From: a virus
Virus record (IMG/VR): IMGVR_UViG_3300020400_000014
Coordinates: 1-37,336 of that record
DNA length: 37,336 bases
Direction: 5' to 3' (one strand)
The stretch's first letter is position 1. Every line of letters starts with the position of its first letter. Below are positions 575-25,895 of the stretch, in pieces. Below the pieces are notes generated by a model. It was not told the DNA's origin. It saw only the letters and a list, made by a program, of their open reading frames with translations, and made no database searches. The position numbers were made by a program, and so were the translations under genes.

Positions 575-1561
575 ATGGAATCATTTGTAGAATTAAAATC
601 TAAAATAAATATTAATAGAGACAAAGAGCAAAAAAAAGTTGTTGACGCTCTCAATGCTAAAAAAAATTTTAAGGTTGGCGAGGAATGGTTAAAGCATGGC
701 ATTGAATGGCAATCAAACTCATCAGCAGGACTACCCAACTTTTTATATGGCTTTCAATATTTATTACACCCTGAATTAAAAAAATTTTTAATGCACTCAG
801 CTAATATAAAGATGGGTCAATGGATAGGTGAATTTGTAGAGCATTTATGGTTAAGCAAAATATCTATGAATGATGCCTTAGTATTTATAAAAGATATGGC
901 AAAAAGATATACACCAAATGAATTTGCAACTGCTGATAATGAAAAGATGGATAAGTTTATTGAGTATGTAGAAAAATATATTAATGAAATAATTTACCAT
1001 ATTAAAGAAGTAGCAGGTGATAACAAGGTAGTATTTGAACACCCAGTAAATTTATATTTACATGGATTAAATGTACCGATTACTGGTTGGTTAGATGTAG
1101 CAATATTCGATAAAGATGACGAAACAAAGTTGGTTGCTTGGATAGAAAACAAGACGAGTTACCCTAAACCTAAAGGGCATTATAAAAAAAATACAGGTAA
1201 CAATAAGGTTGGTGATAGACGATGGGAAAGTCCGAGTTTCCCCCTCACTCCATCAGTCCGTTACGAACCCCAAATGTCTATTTACTATAAGGCAACCAAC
1301 ATTTTAGGTCATCAGATACATTGCACCCCAAATGGTACACAACTGTTTAGACCTGAAGAACATGAGACACTACAAAAAGAACACTTAGAGGGTGTTTTAA
1401 AAGGTATCTATCAAAAATTAATGGTCAGGCAAAATCTTTTAAAACTTTGTAACGATGCAGAAACTTTTATGAGATTAAGTGAGCCTGATTTTAAATACTG
1501 GAAAATTCAAGACTGGAATCCTGAATACAAACAATTACTGAGAGGTGTATATGACTACTGA
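575..1561 (+). CDS. PD-(D/E)XK nuclease, RecB/Cas4 type (recombination exonuclease)
   Basis: This 328-aa protein has the signatures of the RecB-like PD-(D/E)XK nucleases: Asp174 in GWLDVAI, then Glu191-Asn-Lys193 (the E-x-K motif), then Gln233-x3-Tyr237 (the QxxxY motif). A GEFVEH stretch near 85-90 fits the N-terminal helix motif. Such enzymes degrade DNA ends with a bound divalent metal to expose single strands. The next gene is an Erf-type annealing protein whose start overlaps this stop, so the two probably form a lambda Exo/Beta-like pair acting in the cytoplasm on phage DNA. The residues are visible; the pairing and substrate are inferred from family and position. Confidence 0.75.
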   Translation: MESFVELKSKININRDKEQKKVVDALNAKKNFKVGEEWLKHGIEWQSNSSAGLPNFLYGFQYLLHPELKKFLMHSANIKMGQWIGEFVEHLWLSKISMNDALVFIKDMAKRYTPNEFATADNEKMDKFIEYVEKYINEIIYHIKEVAGDNKVVFEHPVNLYLHGLNVPITGWLDVAIFDKDDETKLVAWIENKTSYPKPKGHYKKNTGNNKVGDRRWESPSFPLTPSVRYEPQMSIYYKATNILGHQIHCTPNGTQLFRPEEHETLQKEHLEGVLKGIYQKLMVRQNLLKLCNDAETFMRLSEPDFKYWKIQDWNPEYKQLLRGVYDY

Positions 1562-2081
1562 AAAAAAACCAAAAACTAAAGCAGAGCCAAAAGTTGACAA
1601 CAAAATGTTGCTCAACTTTAAAATGTTACAAGCTCAAAGCGAAATTGAGGCAGAAAAAAGCAGAGTGGCAAACTATAATGCTTACGAGTATGACAAGCTG
1701 ATACCTAATATAATTAAGGTAACGAGCAGACTAAATTTAAGAATAAAGCCAACTTTTGATATGTCATTTAATGAGGGCAAACCAGTTATTAGTTGTAAGG
1801 TTGATGTCATAAATTTAGATGTTCTTATTACAAAGAAAACCAACGAAGGTGAGCAAACATTTTATGAGAGTGAGGTTCATGGCGTTTATACAGTTGTTGG
1901 TGATTTAAGTAGAAATCCAAAGATAGAGTGCGGTCAGCTTTATACTTATGCTTATAAAAATGCACTATTAAAAATATTTAATATTAATGAGGGTAATGTT
2001 GACCCTGATACTCAAACCATACAAAAGTTACAAAACAACAATGGTTTGAACATTAATGACAATGCAATTCCAAACTTATAA
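1551..2081 (+). CDS. Erf-type single-strand annealing recombinase
   Basis: The 176-aa product matches the Erf superfamily pattern. An N-terminal helix holds YDKLIPNI, a central strand region contains DVLITKK, and CGQLYTYAYKNALLKIF (about residues 130-146) corresponds to the family's conserved G-x3-TYA-x(2-3)-AL block. Erf proteins coat and anneal complementary single strands, for example to circularise or repair phage DNA. Start: ATG 1551 is preceded by AGAGG at 1541-1545. An upstream GTG at 1545 overlaps that ribosome binding site and is unlikely. The gene overlaps the nuclease stop by 11 bases, so the two are translated together. The lysine-rich head (residues 1-20) and loose tail look disordered. 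Confidence 0.75.
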   Translation: MTTEKKPKTKAEPKVDNKMLLNFKMLQAQSEIEAEKSRVANYNAYEYDKLIPNIIKVTSRLNLRIKPTFDMSFNEGKPVISCKVDVINLDVLITKKTNEGEQTFYESEVHGVYTVVGDLSRNPKIECGQLYTYAYKNALLKIFNINEGNVDPDTQTIQKLQNNNGLNINDNAIPNL

Positions 2082-4253: not shown

Positions 4254-4670
4254 ATGAATGACATAATAAATCGAAATAGAAAATTAGTTGAATTTACTAA
4301 AGTTGATAATTTAGACGATGCTCTAAATTTACAAAAACAAATTAAAGGTCATCACGAGTACGAGGGCTATTGCAAAGATAACTACGATTTTGCAAGTAAA
4401 GAATATGGCTTTATGGTTTCTAACGATGGCGATATTTTCTATGTATATGACACTAATGAATCAACAAGAGGTCGTAAAACTTTTGGTGAAAAACTTTTAC
4501 ACAAAGTAAGTGCAACAAAATGTTTACACAATGGTTCTTTTTATTGGTGTGTTATTGATAAAACAGACAATAAAATTTGTTTTGCTGATGTTCCTTTAAA
4601 AAGAGACGATAATACTAGAAAAGCATCAGTAGGTTCAAACTTTATCTTAACAACAGAGAGGGTGGCGTAA
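4254..4670 (+). CDS. Hypothetical protein, first gene of the integrase operon
   Basis: A 138-aa soluble protein with no recognised family. Tyr/Phe-rich strands in the middle (about 48-70) and three cysteines in the second half (TKCLHNGSFYWCV near residues 97-109, then ICFAD). Start: ATG 4254 follows AAAGGAAA at ideal distance; the in-frame ATG at 4212 has no ribosome binding site. Its stop codon sits in the loop of a strong hairpin (4660-4677). Position ahead of integrase suggests a lysogeny or excision accessory role, but that is only context. Confidence 0.55.
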   Translation: MNDIINRNRKLVEFTKVDNLDDALNLQKQIKGHHEYEGYCKDNYDFASKEYGFMVSNDGDIFYVYDTNESTRGRKTFGEKLLHKVSATKCLHNGSFYWCVIDKTDNKICFADVPLKRDDNTRKASVGSNFILTTERVA

Positions 4671-4677
4671 GCCACCC
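4660..4677 (+). repeat. Intercistronic hairpin, GGGTGGC/GCCACCC
   Basis: A perfect 7-bp GC stem with a GTAA tetraloop (GNRA type) covers the stop codon of the 4254 gene (TAA 4668-4670). It is followed by a ribosome binding site, not a T-run, so it is not a normal terminator. It may stabilise mRNA, set translation ratios or attenuate transcription into integrase. Similar GGTGG/CCACC hairpins occur at 24897-24917 and 33682-33702. Confidence 0.6.
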
Positions 4678-4693
4678 CCAGAAAGGAAAAAAA

Positions 4694-4936
4694 ATGAAAA
4701 AAATAAAACTTAGTGAATTAAAAGGTACTGAAGAATATGACTACATTAAGCATCTTGAAGAAAGAATTGAAGATGCTGAGTGGGTAATTAATAAATTTAA
4801 AGAAACTGGTAAACACTTTCCATCTGGATTTACAAGCGATGGCAAACCACAAACTTGTGTTGATGTAGCAAAAAAACAACTTCAGACTTTACCAAAAACA
4901 CTTAAACAATACAAAGAAACTCTAGGGGTAGAATAA
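4694..4936 (+). CDS. Hypothetical 80-aa protein upstream of integrase
   Basis: A small, charged, helical protein with a possible coiled coil at about residues 14-40 and one cysteine near 55. AAAGGA precedes the ATG, and the stop TAA overlaps the integrase start (TAATG). This coupling and the small size are typical of excisionases (Xis/RDF), and a recombination directionality factor should exist somewhere. However, no winged-helix motif is clear, so this stays a guess. Confidence 0.5.
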   Translation: MKKIKLSELKGTEEYDYIKHLEERIEDAEWVINKFKETGKHFPSGFTSDGKPQTCVDVAKKQLQTLPKTLKQYKETLGVE

Positions 4937-6234
4937 TGCAAAAACATGATAAAGATTGGCAAACTCAATACTGTAATCTAGGTGGTGTTGTTAAGACTGC
5001 ACCTGATGGTAGATGGTTTGCAGAACATAGAAACATAAAGCAAAAGCGTGTTAGGTTTTATGTAAATTCAAAAGATAAATTAGTTAAGAGGTTGGCAAGT
5101 GTTGTCAATAACCATCTAAAAGGCATTGATATTATGTATAGTGATGAGCAAAATGCAACACTTACAAAAGCATTATTGATGCTTGAGACAAAAGTTAAAG
5201 AAGAAATATTTAGTGGTAGCAATATAAGATGCAATCCTAAAACACTGCAAAGAAAGCTAAATGATATTACTAAATTACTTAAATTTTTAGAATTGTCTGA
5301 AAGTTTGACTAATAAATATGTAAGAAATTATGATTGGACTGATGCTGACAATCTAGTGACTATAATAGATAAAGGTTGCGGTAAAGAATCGCCTCACACT
5401 AGGTCAAGATACTTTTCATTATGCCAAGATGCTTTTGACGATTGTATTTTAAAAGGTTTTGTTAGCAGTAATGTCAATGTTTTGACTGAGTACAGACAGG
5501 CTAAATCTAACAAAAAGTTTACTAGGTCATTTAACAAGCGTAAGCAGGACATCAAAGAGTTGATGAGGCGTTGGGATATATCAGATATGAAAAGGTTTAT
5601 TGACTCAATCAAAGACCCTGTAGAAAAGCGTATAGCAAGATTAATGGCATATACTGGTATGAGAGTAAGTGAGATTATGGCGTTGCGTAAGTCTGACTTA
5701 AAAATTAAGAGCAATGAGTCTAGTTATGTAGAAGTTGTTGGTCAGCTTGATAATCAAGGGAAATGGAAAAAAGGCACTAAGACTGATGCAGGTTTTCTTA
5801 GACAAGTTGATATTGGTCAAGGTTTAGCAACAGACCTAAAAGATTATATAGATAACTTTTTGTATAAATTTAAAGATAATGGTGAGTTAATTGGCTATGA
5901 TGATGGTGAGCCTGTATATGGTGGGGATTTGTTGTTTCCTTATGTACGCAATCATTATGCTGATGGTTACTCTTATATGACGCTTGTAAAGCGATTTAAG
6001 AAACATTTTAAGGGTGAGTTTACATTACCAGACCAATTAAAGTTTCATTTCTTTAGGCACTGGCTAATTACGATGTGGGCTAGACATGACATATACAATG
6101 TCAATCAAGCGGTATCTATGGTGGGTCATGAGACTATCCAAACTACTCAAAATATCTACACTAGCATATCAAACACTAGGCATTATGAGAAAATAGATAG
6201 TAAATACGATTGGATAGACAATAAGCTATTTTAA
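4936..6234 (+). CDS. int: Tyrosine-type site-specific integrase
   Basis: This 432-aa protein catalyses integration and excision of the prophage. The catalytic set of tyrosine recombinases is complete: Arg243 (TGMRVSE), a beta-hairpin Lys near 280-282 (KKGTKTDAG), His371-x2-Arg374 (HFFRHW), His398 (VGHE) and nucleophile Tyr408, ten residues later. An N-terminal arm-binding region (1-60) and a helical core-binding domain (about 65-190) precede the catalytic domain. Its start overlaps the previous stop. Its last 4 bases overlap the convergent minus-strand gene with no terminator between. Cognate attP cannot be set without the host site; the control region at 3868-4253 or the hairpin at 308-358 are candidates. 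Confidence 0.95.
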   Translation: MQKHDKDWQTQYCNLGGVVKTAPDGRWFAEHRNIKQKRVRFYVNSKDKLVKRLASVVNNHLKGIDIMYSDEQNATLTKALLMLETKVKEEIFSGSNIRCNPKTLQRKLNDITKLLKFLELSESLTNKYVRNYDWTDADNLVTIIDKGCGKESPHTRSRYFSLCQDAFDDCILKGFVSSNVNVLTEYRQAKSNKKFTRSFNKRKQDIKELMRRWDISDMKRFIDSIKDPVEKRIARLMAYTGMRVSEIMALRKSDLKIKSNESSYVEVVGQLDNQGKWKKGTKTDAGFLRQVDIGQGLATDLKDYIDNFLYKFKDNGELIGYDDGEPVYGGDLLFPYVRNHYADGYSYMTLVKRFKKHFKGEFTLPDQLKFHFFRHWLITMWARHDIYNVNQAVSMVGHETIQTTQNIYTSISNTRHYEKIDSKYDWIDNKLF

Positions 6235-17980: not shown

Positions 17981-18619
17981 TTACTCTGTACTTGTTGTGC
18001 CACGCATAATAAGTGGTACATCTTGATTGTACTTAGATGTATCGTTAAGACTTACTACTCTTTCAATGGCGTTGTTGTAAAAATTAAGCCACTCTTTCAC
18101 TATGTTTTGGTCAATACCCCTAATAAATGTATTAGCAAAATATAATGACCCAAATAGATAACAGTCTGAATGATTGTTTAGTATGTCATTAGTGTCAGCG
18201 TCATTAGTCAATGCGTCAAATTTTTTATAGTAATACATTCTAATACTATAAGTGCCATCAGGTATTGGATAAAAATGTATCTTATCATTGAGGATTGTGT
18301 AAGCTACTGGTTGACCAACTACGCTACTACCATACATATCAAATGCCTGATTAGGCGTAACATACTGTAATGACACTTTAGGTGATGCGTTTATGTAAAC
18401 TGCATTTGCACCCAAAAATCCTGTTGGTAGCAATTCAGTTTCAGCATCAGCATCAAAGTCAAGAAAGTTTATCATCTTGTTAAATCCTGCTGATACAAAC
18501 TTTGCGTTAAAATCATTCTCTGCAAGTTTTATAAAGTCAGGTATATCGTTTACTAGGTCTGTTCTACCTAACCAGTTTGCAAGTGCAGTTTTTAAGTTTG
18601 CATAATTATTTAGTGCCAT
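17981..18619 (-). CDS. Head-to-tail adaptor (P22 gp4-like / SU10 adaptor family)
   Basis: A 212-aa protein starting MALNNYANLKTALANWLGR, then DIPDFIKLAENDFN, the conserved helical opening of podovirus adaptor proteins. A middle part with YVTPNQAFDMYG and a strand-rich HFYPIPDGTYSIRMYYYKKF follows, then a helical end. About twelve copies would sit under the portal and bridge to the hub encoded next. Gaps to both neighbours are 0-2 bases. Confidence 0.75.
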   Translation of the reverse strand: MALNNYANLKTALANWLGRTDLVNDIPDFIKLAENDFNAKFVSAGFNKMINFLDFDADAETELLPTGFLGANAVYINASPKVSLQYVTPNQAFDMYGSSVVGQPVAYTILNDKIHFYPIPDGTYSIRMYYYKKFDALTNDADTNDILNNHSDCYLFGSLYFANTFIRGIDQNIVKEWLNFYNNAIERVVSLNDTSKYNQDVPLIMRGTTSTE

Positions 18620-18952
18620 TTAAAATGTTCCCTCTGAAGTTTTTAAATACGCCCATTCTGGCGAATTTAGTTTTTTTCTTAAATATTCTGTTTGTTCTAA
18701 TGGTGGTAATTGAGTGAATAAAAACCCATCTTGTGCCAACCACTCGTAGATTACAACTAATGGTATAGATGCAACTTTGCGAGCATCTTTGCTTGCATTG
18801 TAACCAGTAAAATTATTTCTTTCTTCTTTGTTTTTCTTTAGTATAGGTTCTACATCTTGTGTATAAGATGTTGTCCACTTTTGACTTTGCTCATCAAACT
18901 TATGTTCAGTGGCGATTACCCCATCGTATGTTTTGTCTATTGTCTTTGCCAT
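18620..18952 (-). CDS. Conserved small phage protein (head/neck cluster)
   Basis: A 110-aa protein whose blocks QDVEPILKKNKEERN (about 31-45), ARKVASIPLVVIYEWL (57-72) and YLRKKLNSPEWAYLKTSEG (90-108) match a family widespread in T7-like and marine podoviruses. Its function is not established; it is usually found near head-completion genes. No membrane segment or catalytic motif. It is the last gene before the COQ4-like cassette, with a 9-base gap. Confidence 0.6.
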   Translation of the reverse strand: MAKTIDKTYDGVIATEHKFDEQSQKWTTSYTQDVEPILKKNKEERNNFTGYNASKDARKVASIPLVVIYEWLAQDGFLFTQLPPLEQTEYLRKKLNSPEWAYLKTSEGTF

Positions 18953-18961
18953 TTAATAAAA

Positions 18962-19588
18962 TTATTGCTCACCTTTATAATTGTGTTTAATGTAACTTTT
19001 CGCCACTAACCAAAGTTGCGGTTTTTCTGTCATATTTAGTTCTTTTAAAACTTGTTCAGTTGGTTTTGTAAATTTCTCTTTCCAGTCAACTTCCATAAAC
19101 CACTGTGTGCCTTTACTTAGATTATGTGACTCTAATAATAGTTTTATCCAATACCTACTTTTAAATAATCCATTTTTTTTAAAAAATTCATTAAGAATAG
19201 TAAAAATCCACATACCTATTATTGAAAACCTAAACTCATGTCTCATACCAAATGTAAACATAAGACCCTCGCCTGCAAGTGATGTATCATATCCTGTAAT
19301 GAAATGTTGCAAGTCATGTACTACACACCAGTCTTGTTTATATCTTTTAACTTTTTCAGTATCTTTTTTATTTTTATATAAGTTATATAAATCAACAATA
19401 GTACTGTTGTCATAGTTCATGTATTTATAAAAATCTTTTCCAAATGAACCATCTGGCAGTTTTTTTAAATCATCATTAATTAAGTTATACAAATTGTATT
19501 TAGGTTTGTATTTTTTTATAAAACGCTTTTCAAAATCAAATTTTTGAAAATTGGTTAATAATTTGTGTGCGGTATAATTACCAATCAT
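18962..19588 (-). CDS. COQ4-family protein
   Basis: This 208-aa protein carries the diagnostic metal motif of COQ4 proteins, HD-x2-H-x11-E: His91-Asp92, His95 and Glu107, within VVHDLQHFITGYDTSLAGE. Upstream LPDGSFGKDFYKYM (44-57) and a RYKQDW just before the HD also match the family; the usual length (about 200-260 aa) agrees. COQ4 acts in ubiquinone synthesis at the membrane, and recent work links it to oxidative removal of the C1 carboxyl group. Here it lies among virion genes, in a coupled, AT-richer cassette, so it may be an auxiliary metabolic gene affecting host respiration. Fold assignment is firm; activity is inference. No other ubiquinone gene is present. Confidence 0.82.
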   Translation of the reverse strand: MIGNYTAHKLLTNFQKFDFEKRFIKKYKPKYNLYNLINDDLKKLPDGSFGKDFYKYMNYDNSTIVDLYNLYKNKKDTEKVKRYKQDWCVVHDLQHFITGYDTSLAGEGLMFTFGMRHEFRFSIIGMWIFTILNEFFKKNGLFKSRYWIKLLLESHNLSKGTQWFMEVDWKEKFTKPTEQVLKELNMTEKPQLWLVAKSYIKHNYKGEQ

Positions 19589-20322
19589 TTATAATAGATT
19601 ATAACTTTGTTTGCTTTATCACTTATATTTTTTAGTTTTACAGATGGACTTTCTAATTTTTTATATTCATATTTGTTAAATGGCATTGTATGTCCATCAT
19701 TTGCTGAACCAAGTAATGTTGTTTCAATTACAGAGTCTTGAGTTGTAATTACATATGCAGTTTCACAATCTGGTCTTTCAACATCTATAGTTTCATTTGG
19801 TGCAACATCTATATGTTTCATGCCCCAATTTACACTAGCATTTTTTTGCATAATGCACATAATCTCTGCATCAGTGCTTTCAGCAACAATATGTAGGTTT
19901 GATGTATCTAACATATAGCTTAGAGGAAATGTTGCCCAATCTTTGTTCTCACCTGTAAGTGTAATTCTTGTAACTAGTTTACTGTTCTCTAAATCTTTTT
20001 CACATTCCCAAGTTTCAGGGCAGTCCTCAAGATATTGTATAAAAGCGTCAACATCTTTTTCTTCTATGTTATCTTCTTCTATCCATTCATAAGTTACAGA
20101 AACAGACCCATTAACAAGAATATAATTTTGTTGATTTTGTTTTATTTTTTTAGAGTATTCATGGGTTGTTTTTATTTTTGCAGGGTCAAGTTCCATCTTT
20201 CCAATTCTGCCTATTTCCATTCCAACTTCTATGTTTTTATAATCAGGAAAAGCTAACTGTAAATTTCCCTCTAATGTTGCTAATTTTGTATCATCAAACT
20301 TATAAGTAAATATTACATTCAT
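19585..20322 (-). CDS. Unknown protein in the COQ4 cassette
   Basis: A 245-aa acidic protein without signal peptide or membrane helix. The C-terminal half is strand-rich (AEIMCIMQKN, MKHIDVAPNETIDVERPD, ETAYVITTQDSVIETT), which might be a cupin-like or jelly-roll domain, but metal ligands are not obvious. The N-terminal half contains a helical VDAFIQYLEDCPETWECEK segment with two cysteines. Stop and start overlap the COQ4-like gene (ATGA) and the next gene likewise. The strict coupling suggests the product works with COQ4 or belongs to the same acquired unit. Confidence 0.55.
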   Translation of the reverse strand: MNVIFTYKFDDTKLATLEGNLQLAFPDYKNIEVGMEIGRIGKMELDPAKIKTTHEYSKKIKQNQQNYILVNGSVSVTYEWIEEDNIEEKDVDAFIQYLEDCPETWECEKDLENSKLVTRITLTGENKDWATFPLSYMLDTSNLHIVAESTDAEIMCIMQKNASVNWGMKHIDVAPNETIDVERPDCETAYVITTQDSVIETTLLGSANDGHTMPFNKYEYKKLESPSVKLKNISDKANKVIIYYK

Positions 20323-20678
20323 ATAGACTCTACCTCTGTGTTATTTTTTTCTTTTACAATATTCCATTGTGGGTTGTCTTTTTGTTTTACTTCAAATGTT
20401 TCTGGGTCAACATAAAAACCATCAGGATTATAACCTAGCTCTCTTAACCATTCATTTTGTATTCTTATTTCAGCTTCTTGGTGCATACTTTCCCATTGTT
20501 GATGCCCATTTCTTAAAACAAAGTTTTTATAAGAACCATTAAAATTTTCTGGTATAAAATCTGTTTGCATTAAATCATCTCGCCTAATAATGCCATTTTC
20601 AATATGCTCACACCCTTTAGGCAATGCACATTTTAATACTTTTTTATATTTTAAAATCATTTTTGTGTTTCCATTCAA
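20319..20678 (-). CDS. Unknown protein in the COQ4 cassette
   Basis: A 119-aa soluble protein. Landmarks: LKCALPKGCEH (about 15-25, two cysteines), a Trp/His segment RNGHQQWESMHQEAEIRIQNEWLREL split over residues 56-82, and a C-terminal YNPDGFYVDPETFEVK. The residues WLRELGYNPDGFY-x-D recall helical assembly or scaffold proteins, but I cannot assign it. Start ambiguous: ATG 20678, or ATG 20660 with GGAAA upstream. The second is somewhat better placed for a ribosome. Confidence 0.5.
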   Translation of the reverse strand: MNGNTKMILKYKKVLKCALPKGCEHIENGIIRRDDLMQTDFIPENFNGSYKNFVLRNGHQQWESMHQEAEIRIQNEWLRELGYNPDGFYVDPETFEVKQKDNPQWNIVKEKNNTEVESI

Positions 20679-20684
20679 TTTTTT

Positions 20685-20774
20685 TTAATTTGAAATTACT
20701 ATAGACAACATAAAAGTAAAAACACATGACCAAACAATTATTGTTATAATTAATTCTAAAATGTGTAATTTCAT
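20685..20774 (-). CDS. 29-aa single-helix membrane peptide
   Basis: ATG 20774 overlaps the TAA of the upstream structural gene (TAATG on the minus strand). The frame encodes 29 residues: MKLHILE, then an almost unbroken hydrophobic helix, ending at TAA 20685. Such a coupled start and a clean membrane helix argue for a real microprotein, though short open frames are frequent in AT-rich DNA. It opens the COQ4 cassette. It might anchor or regulate a partner in the membrane; no evidence beyond topology. Confidence 0.4.
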   Translation of the reverse strand: MKLHILELIITIIVWSCVFTFMLSIVISN

Positions 20775-21433
20775 TAACCAATTACAATACTTGTGTTTGA
20801 ATTAAGCCTACCTAATGCCCAGTTATCAAATGTGGTGCTAAGACTAGCAGAGTTATTCCTGCTTATACCGCCCCAAGTTAAAAATTTATCTGTTGAGCTT
20901 GGTGCTGTAAAATTCTGTCCACTTGCTGTATTACTAGCGTTATTCCAAGCCTGAAAACCAAGACCTTGAAAAGTTGCACCAGAATAATTTTGAAATAAAT
21001 ATTGTGCAATACCATTTATATTAAATTCAAATACCCAAGCGGAAAAAACAGCATTATTTCCCCCTTTAATTTTATTTGATGCTGTAATTGTAGCTGAAAA
21101 CCCACCTGCAACTACTGATGTATCTGATGCAGTTGGTGTTACTGAACCAGAAAAATTTGTAGAATAGCCAAGCATTGTAAACTGACTTTTTGCTACACCT
21201 TGTGTAAATTGTTTCATGTTTATGTTATGAGTTAAATCAAGTGGTGCTGTAGCTGATGTACCATAAAAATCTTGAACATCTATAGTACCACTTGTTGGTA
21301 TAGATGAAGTATTACTATGATTAGGTACTAAACCTCCACCTCTGTAATATTCATTAATTCCAATAGGATTACTGCCTCCAAACTCACCTTGTATTGATTG
21401 CAGGCTAATTGCTCCACTACTAGGTAAGGTCAT
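20774..21433 (-). CDS. Fibre-like structural protein
   Basis: A 219-aa protein opening with LPSSGAISLQSIQGEFGGSNPI, a phrase frequent in marine phage fibre proteins (given here in two parts: SGAISLQSI about 5-13, EFGGSNPI about 17-24). IPTSGTIDVQDFYG (about 45-58) repeats the same idea. The remaining part is Ser/Thr/Asn-rich beta structure, ending SNTSIVIG. Probably a minor fibre or tip protein working with the S74 fibre, whose gene ends 2 bases upstream. Confidence 0.65.
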   Translation of the reverse strand: MTLPSSGAISLQSIQGEFGGSNPIGINEYYRGGGLVPNHSNTSSIPTSGTIDVQDFYGTSATAPLDLTHNINMKQFTQGVAKSQFTMLGYSTNFSGSVTPTASDTSVVAGGFSATITASNKIKGGNNAVFSAWVFEFNINGIAQYLFQNYSGATFQGLGFQAWNNASNTASGQNFTAPSSTDKFLTWGGISRNNSASLSTTFDNWALGRLNSNTSIVIG

Positions 21434-21435
21434 GT

Positions 21436-23967
21436 CTAATTTTCCTCAACTTCAGTTATCAACCTATTGACAATTAATTCTAATTTTTCGTTTCTATCTT
21501 TTAATTCTTTGATTGCTTCAATAAGTAAACCAACAGTATTTTGATATTTCATTGTATGCATATCTTCTAAGGCATCTGGGTTCATGTCTGACTTTAAATT
21601 TTGTATAGCTACCAACTCAGGCACGATTTCTTTTACCTCTTGAGCAATAACACCAATCTCTCTAGCTTTTGTTTCTTTTCTTGTGTACTCAACACCTCTA
21701 AGTTTAGAAACTTTGTCTAGTGCATTGTCGATTGTTTTAATATCTTCTTTTATACGAATGTCTGAGAAAGCTGTACAGTTAGCGTTAAAAGTACCATTTC
21801 CAGAGCTATCAAGGACAAATACATTAGAACCAGACGCATTTCTGCAAATAAAGTTTGTGGTAAATTGATGATACATATTATTACTATGATGTTCTATTTT
21901 ACCAGCTACTTCACCTGACCATGTACCACCATTAATAATTTCTAATCTTTTGTCAGCTTCAACTTGAACCCCTTGAGATGTAGTAGAAAACATTTTAGCA
22001 TTATTGTGATAAAGCTCTACTGCACCATCATTAATAAATTTTGCTTGAAACTCTGAACCATGTTTTATGTGTAAATCAGCAGCATGGTTGTCAATAATAT
22101 TATTTGTACCATCATGTTTTATTTGAAGGTCTGTGCCTGCTCCAACTGCAAGTATTCCATTGTCTTGATTGAGCCAACAATTTCCAGTTACTTGTACACC
22201 TGACGCATAAGTTTCTAATTTGTTTGCACCATCATGAAAAAGTTGTACTGTTCCACCATCTATACAATTAATATAAGTTTTATCGTTTGTTGCATTGTTC
22301 AGTATTAAATTCGTTGCTCTAATATCTAATCTGTTAGCCCCTGTTTCTTTAATTATAGAGCTGTTATCTGATGAGTCGTGAAATATTTCAAAATCGTTTC
22401 CATCTCCGAGTCTTATTTTAACATCATCATTAAAATCTACGCCTGTTGCTCCACCTACAGGTGTTGGGATTGTTGGTGTTCCTGATAAGTCTGAATATGC
22501 ACCTGAAGTTGCGACTGTTGCTAAAGTTGGTGAACCAGATAAATCACCGTAAGCACCTGTTGTTGCTACAGTTGCTAAGTTGCCAACTGCTGTATTTAAA
22601 GCACCAATATCAACTCCATCGACTGTACCTGAGACAACTATGTTGCCAGTAACATCAACACCAGTTGCACTTGTTTCAAAAACTTTTGTATTATTTTCAA
22701 ACAACTCTACACTACCGCCATCTTCAGCGTTAATCATAGTTTTATCGTTTGCACTGTTTTTGACAACAAAGTCTGATGCTCTTATTTCTAAATCGCTAGT
22801 GCCACCCTCTGCAAATATTGTTTTGTTAGTTGAAGACTCATGCTTAATACTAAAATCACCACTACCGCTTGCTCCACCAAATGATAGTAATACATCATCA
22901 TTAAGATGTAATTCGCCAGTAAATGTACCGCCTGATTGTAAAACAGATGGTATCGTTGCTGAACCACCTAGTGCAACTGATTGACCATTAATTGTTATAG
23001 TGTTTGTTGGTATAGTTGTTGTAATAGCAAAGTCACCAGATGAGTCCATGTTTGCAGTTCCAGTGACCGCACCTGATAAAGTTACAGTACTTGTTTGGTT
23101 GTCAAAACTATCAGTGCCATCATGTACCAATATTTGTCCTGCTGATGGTGACGATATGTTTGAGTCCCCTGCCTCTGCAAGAGTATCAATGCCTGATATT
23201 TGAGCATCAACATAAGTTTTAATTGCTTTACTTGACGCTAATTCATTGTCTGACCCACTTACTGAAGTAATATCGGTATCAACTATATTTGAAATTGATA
23301 CATAAGGAATATTACTGATAGTGTTTGCATTGCCATCAATAGTTTTATTACTAAGATTACTGGTGCTTGCAGGTGTTAAATAATTACTATCGTTTGTCCA
23401 TTGAGAAATATTACCTGATTTATTTGTGAAAGTGTTTGTTGATGATGCGGTGGTATATCCTGAGTCATTTGTCCATTGTGATATGTCACCTGATTTATTT
23501 GTGAAAGTTGCAGTATCGCTTGCATAGTTGGTGAGTTCAGTTTGCACATAGGCGGTAGTTGCTATCCTAGTGCTATTGTTGTCAGCAGTTTGAGTAGTTG
23601 CGGTTGCATTGCCAGTAAACGCAGGACTGGCTAAACCTGCCTTATTATCCAGTTGTGTTTGTATATCTGATGTAACACCATTAAGGTGTCCAAGTTCAGC
23701 GTCAGTTACGCTACCATTTAATACAATATCAATTTTATCATTAGGGTCATCATATGTTACTGTTACGCCTGAATGTGAGCCTGCGGTAAACATTGCACCA
23801 ACAGTATCACGCTGACCCTCTGGGTTTATTCCAAAAAAAGTTGATAATTCACTAATAGGTGCTTTTTTTGTATGGGTTGCTGATGTATCTGATATAACAA
23901 TTTCGTCATCGTTTGCTATATCAGATGCGGTCATCGCATTTAATTCACTAATTTTTTTATCAGTCAT
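21436..23967 (-). CDS. Tail fibre with C-terminal S74 self-cleaving chaperone
   Basis: An 843-aa fibre. The N-terminal about 60 residues (KISELNAMTASDIANDDEI) form the usual particle-attachment segment. The shaft has repeats of two kinds: FTNKSGxISQWTNDS near 155-195, and long beta units with DLEIRASD/RLDIRATN/DLHIKHGS and FETSATGVDVTG-like ends between about 350 and 690. The last about 115 residues are an intramolecular chaperone of the S74 family. SDIRIKEDI holds the catalytic Ser-Asp/Lys region, followed by IGVIAQEV and a closing coiled coil. The chaperone trimerises the fibre and cuts itself off. This is the main receptor-binding candidate. Confidence 0.88.
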   Translation of the reverse strand: MTDKKISELNAMTASDIANDDEIVISDTSATHTKKAPISELSTFFGINPEGQRDTVGAMFTAGSHSGVTVTYDDPNDKIDIVLNGSVTDAELGHLNGVTSDIQTQLDNKAGLASPAFTGNATATTQTADNNSTRIATTAYVQTELTNYASDTATFTNKSGDISQWTNDSGYTTASSTNTFTNKSGNISQWTNDSNYLTPASTSNLSNKTIDGNANTISNIPYVSISNIVDTDITSVSGSDNELASSKAIKTYVDAQISGIDTLAEAGDSNISSPSAGQILVHDGTDSFDNQTSTVTLSGAVTGTANMDSSGDFAITTTIPTNTITINGQSVALGGSATIPSVLQSGGTFTGELHLNDDVLLSFGGASGSGDFSIKHESSTNKTIFAEGGTSDLEIRASDFVVKNSANDKTMINAEDGGSVELFENNTKVFETSATGVDVTGNIVVSGTVDGVDIGALNTAVGNLATVATTGAYGDLSGSPTLATVATSGAYSDLSGTPTIPTPVGGATGVDFNDDVKIRLGDGNDFEIFHDSSDNSSIIKETGANRLDIRATNLILNNATNDKTYINCIDGGTVQLFHDGANKLETYASGVQVTGNCWLNQDNGILAVGAGTDLQIKHDGTNNIIDNHAADLHIKHGSEFQAKFINDGAVELYHNNAKMFSTTSQGVQVEADKRLEIINGGTWSGEVAGKIEHHSNNMYHQFTTNFICRNASGSNVFVLDSSGNGTFNANCTAFSDIRIKEDIKTIDNALDKVSKLRGVEYTRKETKAREIGVIAQEVKEIVPELVAIQNLKSDMNPDALEDMHTMKYQNTVGLLIEAIKELKDRNEKLELIVNRLITEVEEN

Positions 23968-24935: not shown

Positions 24936-25895
24936 TTAAGATAAATCGTATATTCCACCATTACCTGCCTCGTTCTTGGCACATAATGACCACTCAGTTG
25001 TGAGTAGGTACTGTCTGTTATCGCCAGTTTTTGCCAACTCATCTACTTTGTATGGTCTTAGTTCTGCCATTTCCCAAAGGCTATGGTCGATTACTAGAGC
25101 GTCACGACTCCGCATATGCCTCGCTGGTACGACATTGTAAGTTGAGAAATCCCCAACATAAACATCGACTGCACCAACAATAGTTTTGTCAGGAGTCTGT
25201 ACTTGCTTAGTAGCACCACCAGTAAATGATGTTGAGATAACCTGCTTATTGGCACTTCCAACATAGATGGTATCTGCCGAGCCACCATTATCCCATACTG
25301 ATTTACTTACTGCTTTAAGCAATGTCTCAGATAATGGTCTAAGGTTTCCACTAGATGCGTCAGTTCTAGTAGCACTTCCATCAAGAGATGATGGGTCAGC
25401 ACCGCCATTACCTGCACTTGTGTTAGTTCCTAACCAAGTATTGATACCTGCTGATTGTCTAGCAGTTGTAGCGTTACCTGCATTTTTCGCACCATTTTGA
25501 AATATTGAAGTTTCAATATCGTTTTTCAAAACTTTTGCGTTCTTCGCTAGTAGGTATGCAGACATAGTAGCTAGACCTGCTGAGTCTACTGAGTCTTGTG
25601 TACCTGATACTGCGAATGATTTTGCAGATATTTGCGTGTTGTTGTTTAATCGAGTTACATCTGATTGAGCAGTTGCAGAGTAAACTTCACCCTCTAATTG
25701 TGCATTGTTAGCAACAGGACTAGCGAGTGAATCCTTTAACCATTCAACTTTAGTAGATGATGTACCGATTTTTTTGATACTTGACATAAAAGGTGTCTCG
25801 AAAGGGCTGATATTGCTGATGATATCCCCTAAATTTTCACGAGTAGTTTTGCCAGAAGTATCAAATGATGTTTTACTGTTTGATAATAAAGCCAT
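24936..25895 (-). CDS. Major capsid protein, SU10/HK97-fold type
   Basis: A 319-aa capsid protein of the SU10_MCP family. The opening TTRENLGDIISNISPFETPFMSSI, here cited by its parts ENLGDIISNI (about 20-29) and PFETPFMS (about 31-38), is diagnostic. So is EWLKDSLA, then a Ser/Thr/Asn-rich E-loop region, and the end TTEWSLCAKNEAGNGGIYDL. It forms the icosahedral shell through the HK97 fold. The scaffold gene lies directly upstream, as usual. A strong hairpin follows the gene. Confidence 0.9.
   Translation of the reverse strand: MALLSNSKTSFDTSGKTTRENLGDIISNISPFETPFMSSIKKIGTSSTKVEWLKDSLASPVANNAQLEGEVYSATAQSDVTRLNNNTQISAKSFAVSGTQDSVDSAGLATMSAYLLAKNAKVLKNDIETSIFQNGAKNAGNATTARQSAGINTWLGTNTSAGNGGADPSSLDGSATRTDASSGNLRPLSETLLKAVSKSVWDNGGSADTIYVGSANKQVISTSFTGGATKQVQTPDKTIVGAVDVYVGDFSTYNVVPARHMRSRDALVIDHSLWEMAELRPYKVDELAKTGDNRQYLLTTEWSLCAKNEAGNGGIYDLS

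Follow-up and report, generated by a model that had tools for sequence, protein, structure and literature searches.

Among the systems closest to the one considered here are the lipid desaturases of cyanophages and marine phages (Roitman et al. 2018, cited in PMC8228385 and PMC11480375). Another is formed by the host-recognition, or metaviromic, islands of marine phages, in which a tail fibre is accompanied by small accessory genes that include those of Fe(II)-dependent oxygenases (PMC3909814), and a third is ubiG, which has been reported as a viral auxiliary metabolic gene in the Baltic Sea (PMC9301287). The Coq4 family itself is represented by human and yeast COQ4 and by two Nostoc proteins of solved structure, Alr8543 (PDB 6e12) and that of Nostoc punctiforme (PDB 3msq). 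COQ4 and Alr8543 share the metal motif HDxxH-x(10-13)-E, and Coq4 homologues hold lipid between hydrophobic helices (both PMC9774615); the 6e12 structure has oleic acid and Mg bound.

The gene described here is a phage-borne member of the Coq4 family, and it resembles each of these systems in one respect and departs from it in another. It shares with the desaturases the character of a phage-borne, putatively lipid-active enzyme, but the desaturases have another fold and another chemistry, and they are already described in phages. As in the metaviromic islands, it accompanies a tail fibre and small accessory genes, although neither Coq4 nor its partner of about 230 aa is named in the passages and gene table consulted in PMC3909814. 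As with ubiG, a protein of the ubiquinone pathway is found in aquatic viruses, but UbiG is a methyltransferase and is unrelated to Coq4.

The window, by which we mean the whole stretch of DNA analysed, comprises 37,336 nucleotides (positions 1 to 37,336 of the IMG/VR virus record IMGVR_UViG_3300020400_000014) and derives from a phage whose portal, capsid and adaptor proteins are of the SU10 type. Loci compared with it are given L numbers. Its relevant features are the following:

1545-2081, plus strand: ERF recombinase
4936-6234, plus strand: tyrosine integrase
17981-18619, minus strand: SU10-type adaptor protein (PF24175, E 9.8e-27)
18620-18952, minus strand: SU10-like backbone protein of the virion region, 110 aa (phrog_3982; homologue gp58 in HTVC106P)
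18962-19588, minus strand: Coq4-family protein, 208 aa, ATG start (PF05019, E 4.4e-9)
19585-20322, minus strand: partner protein, 245 aa, of the ~230-aa family; shares 4 bases (ATGA) with the start of Coq4
20319-20678, minus strand: cassette protein, 119 aa, TTG start; gene order conserved in L003-L010 and L018
20644-20697, minus strand: 2OG-Fe(II) oxygenase gene remnant, last ~17 codons and stop, from DNA alignment with L003 and L009
20774-21433, minus strand: "GGSNP...EYYRGG" tail-associated protein, 219 aa (phrog_30374); conserved cassette member
21436-23967, minus strand: tail fibre, 843 aa, with a C-terminal S74 endosialidase-type chaperone (PF13884, E 7.8e-18; many tail-fibre PHROGs)
24936-25895, minus strand: SU10-type major capsid protein (PF17236, E 4.2e-80)

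The presence of an integrase and an ERF recombinase indicates that this phage is probably temperate, and a tRNA-like attP search for its host gave a chance-level match only. The closest cultured portal to that of the window belongs to the SAR11 phage HTVC106P (43.5%), which has no counterpart of the window block 18962-23967 between gp58 and the capsid gene. A reading made earlier from the sequence alone, hereafter the sequence-only reading, had placed the Coq4-like gene in a virion gene block, and rightly, as the gene sits between that of the SU10-type adaptor and those of the tail fibre and major capsid protein.

The window protein is established as a member of the Coq4 family by its sequence and its predicted fold, and several results carry this assignment. 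In the Pfam profile search, its match to PF05019 (Coq4) scored 36.4 bits (E 4.4e-9), the cut-off being 22.9; the scores were between 43 and 47 bits in L007, L008, L009, L018 and the T7-like L035 (46-47 bits in the first three), and further viral records also passed the cut-off. With L007 as the query, phmmer against the PDB retrieved the Nostoc homologue 3msq (E 1e-9, residues 34-187). The metal-site motif HDxxHx11E is exact in the 208-aa ORF (H91, D92, H95 and E107, beginning HDLQH, with 11 residues from H95 to E107), and the stretch LPDGSFG occupies residues 44-50. All four motif residues are kept in the IMG/VR orthologues, which are 82-99% identical to the window protein, and the motif is also intact in homologue sets retrieved independently of it, which is the fair test of its conservation. 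The sequence-only reading had called a COQ4-type protein from the exact motif and the upstream LPDGSFG, and proposed that a profile search, a predicted structure and the state of the metal ligands in other viral copies would bear on this; the residues were verified at the positions it gave, and the call proved correct.

As regards the structure, an AlphaFold2 model built from a 36-row alignment had a pLDDT of 77 and a pTM of 0.77; an initial model from seven near-identical sequences (pLDDT 42) was set aside. Foldseek against the PDB returned 3msq and 6e12, both Coq4 homologues, as the sole matches above noise, each with a probability of 1.0. The predicted helical fold is therefore that of Coq4, with moderate TM-scores of 0.50-0.58 overall (about 0.57 for 3msq and 0.50-0.53 for 6e12) and a high rmsd of 5.9-8.4 A, and since the alignment contained Nostoc rows, this likeness depends in part on that of the sequences. 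Among the predicted viral protein structures of BFVD, nothing resembled the model.

The likeness to cellular Coq4 proteins lies in the profile, the metal ligands of the motif and the predicted helical fold; phage and cellular proteins also have G50, F113 and W169 in common. The phage copies have a shorter N-terminus and are 15-18% identical to the Nostoc members in the alignment, and they carry D66, Y100, E118, E153, D168 and W193 as phage-specific invariant residues. In a cellular set that is mostly cyanobacterial, Q117 is present in 41 of 41 proteins, but the phage clade has lost it; the phage-invariant E118, E153 and D168 are not conserved in the cellular set. Around the metal site the phage clade thus departs from the cellular-type conservation that would mark a ubiquinone COQ4. 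The genomic setting also differs, being a tail-fibre locus rather than coenzyme Q synthesis. In a tree that included no alphaproteobacterial Coq4 and in which several long branches meet, cyanobacterial Coq4 fell outside a single clade of the phage cassette copies (SH-aLRT 93), and a jumbo-phage Coq4 grouped with a Cupriavidus protein. By this grouping, the jumbo-phage copy is a separate, independent acquisition.

With a degenerate DNA pattern built on the motif, 36 stretches were retrieved from IMG/VR, all of them Coq4-like by profile; motif conservation among these proves nothing, since the pattern itself includes the motif. The phage proteins are mostly 25-31% identical across groups, and their carriers are several unrelated groups of mostly marine bacterial viruses. 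The cyanophage mark psbA was absent from all 27 records tested. Convincing matches were lacking when four phage Coq4 queries were run by tblastn against 50,697 cultured-phage records, scans of PHROGs yielded no Coq4 copy, a close-relative scan of bacterial genomes yielded none either, and the open literature searched holds no mention of a phage Coq4. The suspicion that the gene was undescribed in phages is thus supported within cultured-phage records, PHROGs, BFVD and the open literature.

A few copies differ in setting or in form. L043 (3631-4326, on a 360 kb contig) and L073 (498-1193) carry Coq4 outside the cassette described below and are probably from a jumbo phage. A Coq4 homologue on a Cupriavidus campinensis plasmid (L081, 2003-2833) has 12 rather than 11 residues from the second His to the Glu, and no gene is annotated at its position in the plasmid table. 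Genomes of Bacteroidota (L075-L080), a phylum generally held to use menaquinone, contain short Coq4-like ORFs (about 150-175 aa) that match the C-terminal part of the profile alone.

In the window, the Coq4 gene ends a cassette that runs from the S74 tail fibre through the 219-aa GGSNP-EYY protein, the 119-aa protein and the 245-aa protein. The last three genes are joined by successive 4-base overlaps, which suggests translational coupling. A gene of the ~230-aa family stands upstream of Coq4 in 33 of the 36 motif stretches (32 directly, and one more judged by its sister locus L119), usually overlapping it or within a few bases, with a distance of 628 bases in L074; the exceptions are one jumbo-phage sequence (two contigs) and L050. 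This partner family has no Pfam or PDB relative; an Imm6 immunity identity for the 245-aa protein was rejected, as the Pfam match was below the cut-off and concerned one member only.

Six longer orthologous loci (L003 and L006-L010) have an additional gene between those for the 219-aa and 119-aa proteins, which in L003, L007, L008 and L009 appears to encode a 2OG-Fe(II) oxygenase (PF13640 for L003 and L007). Compared with the intact gene of L003 and L009, the remnant in the window marks a clean deletion. Between the GGSNP and 119-aa genes of the window there is also a possible 29-aa membrane peptide (20685-20774, minus strand), MKLHILELIITIIVWSCVFTFMLSIVISN, the DNA of which is mostly present in L003 and L009 too.

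The same cassette occurs in L018, a phage contig with a different terminase and a distant SU10-type portal that was binned in a Flavobacteriales MAG; as this label stems from the binning, it is not taken as the host. It occurs as well in the T7-like L035, with a terminase 72% identical to that of Pelagivirus HTVC031P, and its position is conserved in unrelated phages (the window, L018, L035, L044, L061 and L065). In cultured Pelagivirus genomes, lectin- or laminin-like genes and hypothetical ones fill the position between tail fibre and terminase. Directly downstream of Coq4 in L044 (5109-5861), L070, L072 and L053 lies a gene for an NGRCGSTYLYL protein, sulfotransferase-like by eye.

The occupancy of the slot was assessed independently of Coq4 in a scan of IMG/VR with a motif from the ~230-aa family, which gave 15 stretches. 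The gene that follows is Coq4 in 12 of them, with the motif intact wherever its region is present; two of these assignments rely on a start that is cut short or on a sister locus. In the remaining three (L116, L117 and L121) it is fatty-acid desaturase-like, one case being assigned on the basis of 13 residues where the contig ends. A profile search confirmed PF00487 in L121 and L117: the former has two tandem desaturase genes in the Coq4 slot (4535-6027; 64 and 59 bits) and the latter a single fatty-acid desaturase (1-652), and phmmer matched the slot desaturases to acyl-CoA desaturases (E 0.001). On both flanks of the slot, each gene of L121 has its homologue in L042 and L045, which bear Coq4. 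We discarded the notion that a ~230-aa gene belongs with a single type of enzyme, for L117, with a desaturase, and L048, with Coq4, share a 61% identical ~230-aa protein. A swap in three contigs does not prove that Coq4 and the desaturases have a common class of substrate.

Selection sets the Coq4 gene apart from its neighbours. Over five comparisons, dN/dS was 0.07-0.11 for Coq4, 0.13-0.51 for the 245-aa gene and 0.35-0.62 for the 219-aa gene, so that Coq4 is under strong purifying selection and no other cassette gene is as constrained. Between the window and L018, Coq4 is 72% identical and the 245-aa protein 37%. Between the window and L009, dS is about 1-3 for backbone genes but 0.17-0.51 for cassette genes, which indicates that the cassette was swapped between phages more recently than the backbones split.

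On these grounds, the reading that we favour, and to which we give about an even chance, is that the gene encodes a Coq4-family enzyme, probably metal-dependent and lipid-active, which mostly marine phages carry as an exchangeable "moron" within their island of tail-fibre (host-recognition) genes. The retention of the metal ligands suggests that the phage protein is probably still an enzyme, and the membrane lipid desaturases that otherwise occupy the slot, together with the lipid bound by solved Coq4 homologues, make a lipid substrate the best inference. The protein would be made with the tail-fibre genes from the translationally coupled cassette, presumably late in infection, and would act catalytically, most likely on a lipid of the infected cell such as a prenyl lipid, a quinone precursor or another envelope lipid. 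The membrane or envelope would thereby be altered in the late phase, or re-adsorption blocked, and the benefit to the phage would concern the host envelope. Against this count the 2OG-Fe(II) oxygenases, which are able to act on proteins and are also in the cassette, the small number of contigs (three) with the desaturase swap, the moderate TM-scores to solved Coq4, and the fact that the enzyme gene can part from the ~230-aa gene, as in L117 and L048. A narrower version, in which the slot serves exchangeable lipid enzymes coupled to the fibre, host envelope lipids are changed to suit or block its receptor binding (as in superinfection exclusion) and the Coq4 substrate is not a ubiquinone precursor, seems to us possible but doubtful.

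The sequence-only reading had proposed that the phage may alter host respiration or quinone supply, and a true COQ4 auxiliary metabolic gene, catalysing the C1 oxidative decarboxylation of ubiquinone precursors to sustain host ubiquinone and respiration during infection, would fit the family membership and the retained ligands, the activity of human COQ4 as a C1 oxidative decarboxylase (PMC11495197) and the report of another ubiquinone gene, ubiG, in Baltic viruses (PMC9301287). The terminase of L035 relates it to Pelagivirus, and its host is therefore probably SAR11. SAR11 probably respires with ubiquinone. We nevertheless consider such a role unlikely: no further ubiquinone gene was found among the 27 larger window ORFs scanned with Pfam, the gene sits in a tail-fibre island of several phage types, desaturases can replace it there, and residues typical of cells, Q117 among them, are lost while the invariant E118, E153 and D168 specific to the phages have been gained. 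Moreover, Coq4-family members are frequent in cyanobacteria, with 35 positive genomes out of 146, and these bacteria make plastoquinone and not ubiquinone. The close linkage of the gene to the tail-fibre cassette across phage types, with its 4-base overlaps, would also suit a metal enzyme or chaperone for the assembly or maturation of the tail fibre or the GGSNP protein, comparable with the island's 2OG-Fe(II) oxygenases, and Fe(II) oxygenases do stand among the host-recognition genes of marine phage islands (PMC3909814). Coq4 proteins are, however, lipid-associated, the membrane desaturases that replace them are not known to act on proteins, and Coq4 is far more conserved than its neighbours, as the comparison with L018 illustrates, and we regard this role as rather improbable. 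The virion gene neighbourhood, and the way in which Coq4 homologues hold lipid (PMC9774615), could finally point to a virion protein without catalytic activity, structural or lipid-binding, in which the Coq4 fold is put to another use, for instance contact with the host membrane. This we hold to be very improbable, as the four metal ligands are kept across phages only about 25% identical and the low dN/dS is unlike that of host-contact proteins. The alternative of a reused fold raised in the sequence-only reading accordingly stands in part: the residues around the metal site do differ from those of cellular Coq4, but the kept ligands speak for a protein that is probably still an enzyme.

The chemistry of Coq4 was unclear until recently and its bacterial members are largely unstudied, so that a phage subfamily with intact metal ligands, under stronger constraint than most tail and capsid genes of the same phages, offers a tractable route to other roles of this fold. 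Its exchange for desaturases points towards lipid modification within a host-recognition module, and links auxiliary metabolic genes with receptor binding, two fields that are usually treated separately. The carriers probably include phages of SAR11, which is among the most abundant marine bacteria.
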